Shown here piece after piece: positions 42,546 through 52,379 of a stretch of DNA of 64,000 nt (positions are counted from its first letter, which is position 1; every line of letters begins with the position of its first letter). Position numbers and translations under genes: made by a program. The DNA is from Spirochaetia bacterium (GTDB taxonomy: Bacteria > Spirochaetota > Leptospiria > Leptospirales > Leptonemataceae), in contig VFLI01000003.1 in assembly GCA_009885105.1 (NCBI GenBank), positions 1-64,000 on the forward strand, written 5' to 3'. The notes under the pieces are model-generated. The model saw only the letters and a list, made by a program, of their open reading frames with translations. It had not been told where the DNA came from and ran no database searches.

Positions 42546-42938
42546 ATGCCGGTTGTATCCAGATTTTTTCTGCGTTCCGGTTTTGTATGTCTTGCACTCG
42601 CCCTGCTGCTTCGCATGTGGATATTTTCCGGCTGGTCCGACAGGGCGATTTCGTTCATGCCTGTATTCTACCATCTGCTCACAGTCGGCTGGGCCACGCA
42701 GATTATTTTCGGCGTCGCTCACTGGATGTTTCCGCGTTATTCGCAGGAACGGCCGCGCGGACATGAATCACTGACCTGGATCGTCTATGTCTGCCTGAAT
42801 TCGGGATTGCTGCTTCGCCTTATATGCGAACCTTATTCCGAGAATTTTTTTGCCGTCATTGGACTTGGATTTTCCGCGGCTCTGCAGTTTTTCGCCGCGG
42901 CAATTTTTTCAGGCCAGATCTGGCTGCGGGTGCGCTGA
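42546..42938 (+). CDS. Heme-copper-oxidase-like mini membrane protein, copy 1
   Basis: A 130-residue protein with four hydrophobic segments and the motif FYHLLTVGWATQIIFGVAHW followed by MFPR. The histidine plus GW-x2-Q-x-I-x-G-V-x2-W-x2-PR resembles a helix pair of cytochrome oxidase subunit I or NnrS-type proteins. A heme or metal role is inference. It is too short for an oxidase. Its stop overlaps the next gene (TGATG), which has the same motif, so the two form a tandem paralogous pair. Confidence 0.6.
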   Translation: MPVVSRFFLRSGFVCLALALLLRMWIFSGWSDRAISFMPVFYHLLTVGWATQIIFGVAHWMFPRYSQERPRGHESLTWIVYVCLNSGLLLRLICEPYSENFFAVIGLGFSAALQFFAAAIFSGQIWLRVR

Positions 42939-43351
42939 TGCCTCTATTCAGCCGGGTCTCCATTCGAATCTCGCTTGTCTATTTTCTGACCGGTTCTCTT
43001 GCCGGATCGGCGCTCCTTGTGTCGAAGGCGTTGAATTTTCCGCTCTGGCAGGCGCTGAGCGCGCACATTGAGATTATGATTTTCGGATGGTTGTTTCAGT
43101 TCATCATGGGAGTGTCGTTCTGGATTCTGCCCCGTATGAAAAAGAACAGCCGCGGCTGGCCTGGTTTTGTCTGGATTTCTACCGGGCTTTTGAATGCGGG
43201 CGTGCTGCTTTTTATACTTTCGGATATTAATAAAATATTCAGACTTACTGGCATGACCTTCGAAGCGTTGGCCCTGGTTTTTTATGTACGATCCATCCTG
43301 CCTCGCCTCAGGTATGTGAAAAATTGGGGATCGGGAGATAAAAGGGGATAA
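42938..43351 (+). CDS. Heme-copper-oxidase-like mini membrane protein, copy 2
   Basis: A 137-residue protein starting MPLFSRVSIRISLVYFL, with four hydrophobic segments and SAHIEIMIFGWLFQFIMGV followed by SFWILPR. This aligns without gaps to copy 1 over GW-x2-Q-x-I-x-G-V-x2-W-x2-PR and shares the preceding histidine. The ATG overlaps the previous stop; in-frame starts further upstream would run through copy 1 in another frame. The pair probably works as a heterodimer in the membrane. A repeat element follows. Confidence 0.6.
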   Translation: MPLFSRVSIRISLVYFLTGSLAGSALLVSKALNFPLWQALSAHIEIMIFGWLFQFIMGVSFWILPRMKKNSRGWPGFVWISTGLLNAGVLLFILSDINKIFRLTGMTFEALALVFYVRSILPRLRYVKNWGSGDKRG

Positions 43352-48977: not shown

Positions 48978-51900
48978 TCACATGTTTCGACGGTAGCTGC
49001 CGCCCACGCTGTAAAGAGCTCCGCTGATCTGGCCAAGTGTGCAGGTTTTGACAGTTTCCATTAATTCTTCAAAAATATTTTTTCCCTGAAGCGACTTTTG
49101 TTTCAACCGGGCCAGATCGGTCCTGGAAGTTTCTGAAAACGCTTTTTGAATAATTTCAATTTCCCGAATCTGCCTGGCCTTCTCCTCTTCCGTGGACCGG
49201 ATGAGGGCGACAGGAGCTCCGGAATCCTCTGTCTGCCGGAGAAAGGTGTTCACTCCAATGATGGGCAGCTCGCCGGAATGCTTGAGATTTTCATAGTACA
49301 GGGATTCTTCCTGAATTTTGGACCTCTGGTACATCGTTTCCATCGCGCCGAGTACTCCGCCTCTGTCTGTCAGCCGGTCGAACTCGGAAAGGACGGCCTC
49401 CTCGACAAGATCGGTCAGCTCTTCAATGATGTAAGCGCCCTGAATGGGATTCTGATTTTTGTTCAGGCCAAGCTCGCTGTTGATGATCAGCTGTATTGCC
49501 AGAGCGCGCCGGACCGATTCCTCCGTGGGAGTTGTGATCGCTTCATCGTACGCGTTGGTATGAAGGCTGTTGCAATTGTCGTATATAGCGTACAGGGCCT
49601 GCAGGGTGGTCCGTATGTCATTGAAGTCAATTTCGCGCGCATGGAGCGATCTACCGCTCGTCTGTATGTGGTATTTTAATTTCTGCGACCGTTCCGACGC
49701 GCCGTACAGCCTCTTCATCGCCACGGCCCATATCCGCCGGGCTACCCGTCCGATCACGGAATACTCCGCGTCGATTCCGTTGGAAAAAAAGAAACTCAGA
49801 TTCGGCGCAAAATCGTCGATGGACAATCCGCGTCTGAGATAGTATTCAACGTATGTAAAACCGTTTGCCAGAGTGAAGGCCAGCTGCGTGACTGGATTGG
49901 CGCCCGCCTCGGCGATGTGGTATCCGGAGATGGACACGGAATAAAAATTTCGCACTGAGCGTTCCGAGAAATATTTCTGAACATCGCCCATCATGCGAAG
50001 AGCAAATCCCGTGGAAAAAATGCAGGTATTCTGGGCCTGGTCCTCTTTCAGTATATCCGCTTGAACTGTGCCGCGTACTTTTTTTAACACATCGGCGCGG
50101 ATGTTTTCATAGACCTCGCGCTCAAGCAGCCTGTCCCCTGAAAGACCGAGCAGGCTCAGGCCGGATCCGTCGTGACCGTCCGGCAGTTCCCTGCGGTATT
50201 CCGGAGAGGGAAGATTCTTTTCTTTATAAAAATTATTAATATGATTTCTTGCGCTTTCTGAGCGCCCGTGCCGCCGCAGATATCTTTCCACCTCCTGGTC
50301 GATGGCCGTGTTGAAAAAGAAAGCCAGTATTACCGGGGCCGGGCCGTTGATTGTCATGCTCACGGATGTCTGCGGATTTGTCAGATCGAAGCCGGAATAC
50401 AGCCGTTTGCAGTCGTCGAGCGACGGAACGCTCACGCCGGAATTTCCGATTTTTCCATATATATCAGGACGAACTTCCGGATCCTCGCCGTAAAGGGTCA
50501 CCGAATCAAAAGCGGTTGAAAGCCTGCAGGCCCCTTTATTTTTTCCGCCGGTCAGAAGGTGAAAACGGACATTGGTCCGTTCTGGACCTCCCTCTCCGGC
50601 GAACATTCGCGTGGGCGCCTCATCCTGCTTGCGAAAAGGAAAAACTCCGGCTGTGAAAGGAAAATTCCCCGGCAGATTCTCTCTGAAGTAATACGAAACC
50701 AGTTCCCGGCTTGAGGTGAACGAAGGCAGGGCGACTTTTGAAAATTCGAGCCCGCCGAGAGTGCGCGATTTCAGGCTCTCACGGATTTCGCTGTCCCGCA
50801 CATGAAACACCAGTTCCTGTCCGCGGTACTGATCTCTTATTCTGGGCCAGTCTTTCAGCCATTGATGCAGGTCCTTGTCTGTCTGTTGTTCGCGTTTCTC
50901 GATTTCCCTGTCGAAATGCGCGGTGGCAGGGTCTTTCTCCGGCAGAGATAGAAGCGATTTCGCGCCCCTGAGCGCTTCCAGTTCCCCGGCGAGATCCGCC
51001 TGTCTGGCGGCCTCCTGATGGTATTTGCGCACTGTGCCGGCAACTTCGGCAAGATAGCGGATCCGAGCCGGCGGAATGATATCCTGATCGGAAGCGTCTT
51101 CGCGGCGGGAATCGACAATTTTAATTTTGGAAAAAGCCCCGAGAGTTTTTTTGTGTATCAGATCCACAAGAACATTGTAGAGTGTGTTGATGCCTCTGTC
51201 GTTGTAGCGGCCGGCAATCGTCGGGTATACGGGCATGCTTTCCAGATCATGAGAGTGCAGATTGTGGTTTCTCTGATACTGTTTGCGAACATGCAAAAGA
51301 GCGTCTAAGGCTCCGGCCTTCTCAAATTTGTTAAGCGCCACAAGATCGGCAAAATCCAGCATGGCGATTTTTTCCAGCTGCGTCGGCGCTCCGAATTCAG
51401 GCGTCATGACATACAGGGAGATATCGCAGTGCGCGGCGATTTCAGAATCGGACTGGCCGGTTCCGGAAGTTTCCACAATGATACAGTCGTAGTCCGATGC
51501 TCGCAGAGCGCTGATGGCCAGATCGATTGAGGCTGAAAGACTTCCGGCCCCCCGTGTGGCAAGTGAGCGCATGTACGACCGGTCTGGATGTATCGTCAGA
51601 CTGTTCATTCGGATGCGATCCCCGAGCAGAGCGCCGCCGGTTTTTTTGCGGGTCGGATCCACGGCAAGAACGGCGATTTTTTTATCCGGATGCTGCTCCA
51701 GAAAGCGCAGCATGATTTCATCCGTCAGAGACGACTTGCCGGCGCCTCCCGGACCTGTAATTCCAATTACGGGCTGGATCTTTTTTCCGGTCGCGGCTGT
51801 GAGAAGTGTTTTCAATTCCGCCGGATGTTCCTGCGAGTGATTTTCGATGAATGTCAGTATCTTGCCCGTGTGGAAAAAGCCGGATTTTATTCTAGCCATG

Positions 51901-52379
51901 TGTCCGTCGAGAGCCGGGCAGGGATCGAAATCGCATTCCCGCATCATGAAGTCGATGATGCCCTGAAGTCCCATCATGCGTCCGTCTTCCGGTGAAAAAA
52001 TTTTTATGATTCCGTGTTTTTCCAGTTCCTGGATTTCTTCCGGAACGATGACGCCTCCGCCTCCGCCGAAAATCCGGATGTGATCGGCGCCGTTTTCGCG
52101 CAAAAGATCTTTCAGATACTTGAAGTACTCTATGTGCCCGCCCTGGTAGCTGCTGACGGCAACACCCTGCGCGTCTTCCTGTAAAGCGGCATTGACAACC
52201 TCCTGCACGGATCTGTTGTGCCCGAGATGGATCACCTCGGCGCCGGAAGACTGCAGAATGCGGCGCATGATATTGATGGAAACATCGTGGCCGTCGAAAA
52301 GGGAGGCCGCAGTGACAAATCGGATTTTATTTTTTGCGCGGAATTCTGTTTGTTCGTTGTGTTTAGTCGGTAGAAGCAT
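48978..52379 (-). CDS. icmF: Fused isobutyryl-CoA mutase IcmF
   Basis: An 1133-residue fusion in the IcmF order: B12-binding domain ([15 protein letters not shown], lower axial ligand His31), a MeaB-like GTPase chaperone (Walker [10 protein letters not shown] near 209-217), a linker, and the mutase barrel ([20 protein letters not shown]). The phenylalanine in AGVFPF is what isobutyryl-CoA mutases have where methylmalonyl-CoA mutase has tyrosine. It interconverts isobutyryl-CoA and butyryl-CoA with adenosylcobalamin. Its end overlaps none, and a repeat element directly follows the stop. No cobalamin riboswitch is visible upstream. Confidence 0.95.

Follow-up and report, generated by a model that had tools for sequence, protein, structure and literature searches.

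The three-unit core of haem-copper oxidases, which is fused into one chain, is thought to derive from four-helix units. Pei et al. reportedly described, in 2014 (Protein Sci 23:1220, doi 10.1002/pro.2503), stand-alone four-helix proteins with single-evolutionary-unit HCO homology (HCOH) as a class, whose homology is said to extend to all three four-helix units in oxidase subunit I; they are also said to have proposed that HCOH proteins form homo- or heterotrimers and act in denitrification and NO detoxification. The two genes considered here, A and B, lie in a window of 64,000 nucleotides, the whole stretch of DNA that was analyzed, and likewise encode stand-alone four-helix homologues of an oxidase unit. 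They differ from HCOH proteins in that they are arranged in tandem, overlap, and divide the H-x-H pair between them. The building block is already known, and the interest lies in the divided pair, not in a new kind of protein. A tandem pair with divided ligands would be new, unless such a pair is already listed by Pei et al. in 2014, which might be the case.

Three further systems invite comparison. CcoN of the cbb3 oxidase (3mk7) is a single chain of 12 helices that carries haem b, haem b3 and CuB; its helices 2, 6 and 10 stand in gap-free register with helix 2 of A and B, whereas A and B lack the extra histidines for the high-spin and copper sites. WP_014511188.1 of Thermus thermophilus (L032:7980-8414), the best match of gene A in the plasmid collection, is of similar length and contains the same motif block (HVHAGLVGFFLQMVMGVAYWMMPR), but it is a single gene carrying both histidines, located in the nar region, with drpA/drpB before it and a protoglobin gene after it. 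DUF2871 (PF11070) is a four-helix unit with H-G-H or H-A-H at the place of the H-x-H of single-unit proteins, and the DUF2871-like proteins seen keep both histidines, unlike A and B. Some single-unit relatives are matched by both PF11070 and COX1, by PF11070 weakly, and the PF11070 profile gave no match to A or B at E≤10.

Layout and oxidase kinship of genes A and B

The features of the locus, with the histidine positions H1 and H2 taken from a register table, are as follows.

42546..42938, + strand: gene A, 130-aa four-helix single-unit haem-copper-oxidase homologue; FYH, second-position His only
42666..42668, + strand: Phe41 codon of A, at the place of H1 in single-gene relatives (register table)
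42672..42674, + strand: His43 codon of A, at H2 (second position); counterpart of the low-spin-haem His in CcoN unit 3 and of the CuB His in unit 2 (register table)
42936..42940, + strand: TGATG, stop of A overlapping the start of B (sequence)
42938..43351, + strand: gene B, 137-aa four-helix single-unit homologue; HIE, first-position His only
43064..43066, + strand: His43 codon of B, at H1 (first position); counterpart of the low-spin-haem His in CcoN unit 1 (register table)
43070..43072, + strand: Glu45 codon of B, at the place of H2 in single-gene relatives (register table); B of the second genome, G018, likewise has Glu

A preliminary description of this DNA had reported two adjacent, coupled genes for proteins of 130 and 137 residues with shikimate genes as neighbours, and the reading frames bear this out: aroB and aroQ precede the pair, gene A starts two bases past aroQ, and the TGATG overlap makes translational coupling of A and B likely. 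The shared motif GW-x2-Q-x-I-x-G-V-x2-W-x2-PR was recovered in A (GWATQIIFGVAHWMFPR) and in B (GWLFQFIMGVSFWILPR). It had been described as following a histidine in both proteins, which is correct for the motif but not for a common histidine, since the register places the histidine of A two residues away from that of B. The two proteins are homologues (BLASTP aligned 79 aa at 33% identity, E=2e-10), and four transmembrane helices were found in each by hydropathy peaks and in the AlphaFold2 models, which have a mean pLDDT of 86 for A and 69 for B. Elsewhere in the window, a 1133-residue reading frame (48978-52379, - strand) resembles, by eye, a fused B12-binding, G-protein and mutase protein of the IcmF type.

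The homology of A and B extends to the four-helix units of haem-copper oxidase subunit I. The Pfam COX1 profile (PF00115) matched B with E=2.4e-8 and 33.7 bits and A with E=0.005 and 16.2 bits, both below the cut-off of 34.8, while a profile built exclusively from single-gene relatives retrieved A and B with E-values between roughly 1e-15 and 1e-24, for a search space of 1000 sequences. These matches, together with intact homologues of both proteins in another genus, indicate that the resemblance exceeds chance. The NnrS profile (PF05940), a search that had been suggested alongside the one with COX1, matched neither protein at E≤10, and a specific kinship with NnrS was consequently dropped; a search of A and B against NCBIfam returned nothing meaningful. 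Kinship with a duplicated unit of oxidase subunit I was supported, but the two proteins had been called halves of the oxidase core and each is one third of it, a single four-helix unit. As had been pointed out, proteins of 130 and 137 aa are far too short for an oxidase; A and B, with one canonical His each, lack the 12 helices, the six conserved histidines and the Pfam gathering score of subunit I of a haem-copper oxidase or NO reductase, and the pair is not an oxidase.

The relationship can also be followed along CcoN itself, where a profile of the mini-proteins gave two good matches (helices 1-3 and helices 9-12) and a weak one at helix 6. The profile of single-gene forms scored 21-34 bits on CcoN units 1 and 3, and none of the shuffled or reversed sequences exceeded 5.3 bits. 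The profile made from A and B only was weaker, yet with 19 bits versus 6.4 for the null it still exceeded the latter. Unit 2 of CcoN was matched by register only and was not significant by profile. Among solved structures, a sequence search with a six-row profile gave zero matches even at E=10. Foldseek likewise found no significant match to the models of the pair in the PDB, because small four-helix bundles look like many folds: the model of A resembled CcoN (9g6b) at a TM score of 0.57, with other helical bundles scoring likewise, and that of B resembled the MAPEG protein LTC4 synthase at 0.58. These resemblances fit, without proving, a published comparison, namely a passage that cites Pei et al. 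2014 and assigns the oxidase core the topology of trimers of four-helix proteins (PMC4602095).

Division of the H-x-H pair

In the register table, all seven single-gene forms (7/7) have H-x-H at the start of helix 2, with the two histidines seven (H1) and five (H2) residues ahead of the helix-2 glycine. At this place A reads F-Y-H in both genomes that contain the pair, having kept H2 and lost H1, and B reads H-I-E here and H-R-E in the other genome, having kept H1 and lost H2. Both haem-ligand positions at the start of helix 2 are filled only by A and B jointly. From H1 to a position 22 residues on, which is nearly always proline, the alignment is free of gaps for A, B, the single-gene forms and all units of CcoN. 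In six CcoN proteins, the sequences used being close homologues of P. stutzeri CcoN 3mk7, unit 1 has H-T-N (H-T-C in one), unit 2 has Y-G-H and unit 3 has H-V-H. By counting along the alignment, the histidine of unit 2 is His207 of 3mk7, a CuB ligand in that structure. In these enzymes TMII and TMX hold haem b, and in cNOR the two histidines of H-x-H hold haem b3 and haem b (PMC10256718). Register and ligand roles taken together show that at each site one unit contributes H1 and another the opposing H2: haem b is bound by H1 of unit 1 and H2 of unit 3, and haem b3/CuB by H1 of unit 3 and H2 of unit 2. In the aligned residues B follows unit 1 and A follows unit 2, so that A and B would jointly retain exactly one bis-His pair, one H1 and one H2, and no copper site.

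Given that one His was lost per copy, complementary losses have a chance of about one half, and the weight of the observation therefore comes from its retention at 33-44% identity and not from the pattern alone. This retention also bears on the question whether A and B form a complex in which the remaining histidines no longer bind haem, and which acts as a structural or regulatory membrane protein such as an accessory or assembly factor. Each of the two proteins is missing a residue that all single-gene relatives seen possess, and some relatives of oxidase subunit I appear to be ligand-less, among them a 498-residue CcoN-like protein of the same genome, in which the ligand histidines are replaced and the fold is kept apparently without those cofactors. 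However, one His per protein was kept, at two different canonical positions and in two genera in spite of the low identity, and we consider a haem-less complex unlikely.

Relatives, gene context and other oxidase genes

Tandem pairs were surveyed in Spirochaetota and in the plasmid collection. Among 22 genomes of the same family, the A-B pair was found once more, in another genus (G018), where contig C70 ends with A and contig C127 begins with B; an exact 127-bp overlap of the contig ends places A directly before B with the junction TAATG. The known tandem pairs are these two, both from draft genomes and that of G018 read across the contig overlap. In G018 the pair is flanked by genes that were identified by eye as an RlmI-like methyltransferase and feoB. 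The different flanks in the two genomes indicate that the pair was retained as a unit and that the shikimate neighbours look incidental. Gene context was rejected as a clue to function, as the pair follows aroB/aroQ here and adjoins feoB in G018; that the context in both genomes is devoid of a functional hint counts against the reading that we prefer, a small membrane cytochrome formed by A and B together.

Two further genomes of the family (G004 and G012) contain one gene only each, and these were the sole relatives retrieved from the genome contigs with a two-row profile; with B alone, the profile search of the contigs yielded no relative. In a tree, the A proteins cluster together (86/87), as do the B proteins (95/93), apart from the single genes of G004 and G012 (99/97). 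Between the two genera, identity is 44% for A and 33% for B. The grouping of A with A and of B with B indicates that the duplication and the division of the histidines are older than the split of the two genera. The sequence likeness to CcoN units might suggest that the pair was left over, as a remnant or fragment, when a full-length oxidase or NO reductase decayed or was split. We give this explanation very little credit and rejected it, because both frames are intact in two genera, each gene encodes a complete four-helix protein with its own start, and the nearest relatives, which come from several phyla, are not oxidases but four-helix proteins of equal length encoded by single genes.

Single-gene relatives occur in Thermus, Bacillota, rhizobia and other spirochaetes. 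More distant forms are common on rhizobial plasmids and also present in Priestia, and are annotated as 'cytochrome-c oxidase', 'cbb3-type cytochrome c oxidase subunit I' or hypothetical; we found no functional study of single-unit relatives in the literature. On Thermus plasmids, the single-unit gene is part of a nitrate-respiration island, between a DUF1858/DUF2249 gene and the protoglobin gene. The gene preceding it corresponds to drpB, which was studied in Thermus NAR1 (PMC6282519). Two genes past the single-unit gene, on the same strand, a 383-residue protein (L032:9307-10458) is encoded that has no Pfam match at E≤0.1. A spirochaete protein (L029; G059:C13) is a fusion of one four-helix oxidase unit (MHVHYNLLGF) with two DUF1858 domains, which ties the four-helix fold to proteins of the DUF1858/DUF2249 type. 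A 359-residue membrane protein encoded in the genome under study (L025; G000:C16:36621-36944) matched the mini-protein profile weakly (DMHGALMVCGF ... LHSFFMGFIFLLIFGHAP) and may be a longer relative; it has no convincing Pfam family.

The company of the Thermus genes may also point to A and B forming two separate homo-oligomers that are merely co-transcribed, each with a haem or metal on the single His of its subunits, for example a haem with one axial His and an open site that binds NO or O2. Single-gene relatives are presumably homo-oligomeric, and a lone axial His would leave an open site suited to a gas ligand. We nevertheless hold this arrangement to be quite improbable: stop and start codons overlap in both genomes, the pair was kept at different loci, and complementary losses of His favor joint assembly.

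The absence of oxidase genes noted in the preliminary description holds for the neighborhood of the pair, yet other contigs of the genome carry five full-length COX1-family genes. Two COX1-family genes of this genome (L003 and L005; G000:C75:6224-9811) lie side by side, matched none of the specific NCBIfam models for oxidases or NO reductases above cut-off, and adjoin, by eye, a gene for a regulator of the Crp/Fnr type. The 498-residue CcoN-like protein mentioned above is encoded on another contig (L004; G000:C109:17546-18760). Its haem and CuB ligand histidines are replaced in all three units, with RPVFTT for RPVHTN, YRS for YGH and no HxH, and its gene is surrounded by cytochrome c genes in a cluster that resembles, by eye, an alternative complex III with a cbb3-like set.

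Proposed assembly and its meaning

We propose, with a probability of roughly 0.55, that A and B assemble into a ring-like hetero-oligomer, probably a trimer, that holds one low-spin b-type haem as a small membrane cytochrome. A and B are diverged duplicates of a free-standing four-helix unit with the haem-copper-oxidase fold, and their ring, most likely A2B or AB2, would imitate the three-unit core of oxidase subunit I. In the oxidase fold each haem sits between the H1 His of one unit and the H2 residue of the next. In a ring of A and B only one interface would pair H1 of B with H2 of A in any trimer stoichiometry, and the other interfaces would be short of at least one His. As H1 is missing from A and H2 from B, a mixed ring would have exactly one complete bis-His site, and one bis-His haem per ring is predicted from register and fold. 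This site would hold a low-spin b-type haem close to the periplasmic end of helix 2, and the complex would have no high-spin haem, no CuB and no oxygen-reducing site.

Such a small b-type cytochrome may serve in electron transfer, or in sensing or handling of NO or redox state, a putative role that is suggested by the company of its relatives in the nitrate island of Thermus and in the DUF1858 fusion of G059. Haem binding, stoichiometry and function are what we infer for A and B. Of the complex binding haem or quinone that had been suggested earlier, a hetero-oligomer perhaps binding haem is in line with the profile matches, the CcoN register and the complementary histidines, and quinone was abandoned for lack of evidence.

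More tentatively, and at odds clearly below even, the A/B heterotrimer may be a minimal, split 'one-haem oxidase core' that retains only the low-spin haem b site, with the ancestral H-x-H divided between the duplicates. If true, it would be a living model of an intermediate on the way from homotrimeric single units to fused three-unit oxidases, and would parallel the latter, in which units 1 and 2 likewise each kept one of the two histidines. Single-unit relatives are widespread and often annotated as 'cytochrome-c oxidase' or hypothetical. The present-day A-B pair divides the haem ligands just as units 1 and 2 of CcoN do, with the first His only in one and the second His only in the other, and offers a small, expressible system for testing the origin of the asymmetric sites of respiratory oxidases.
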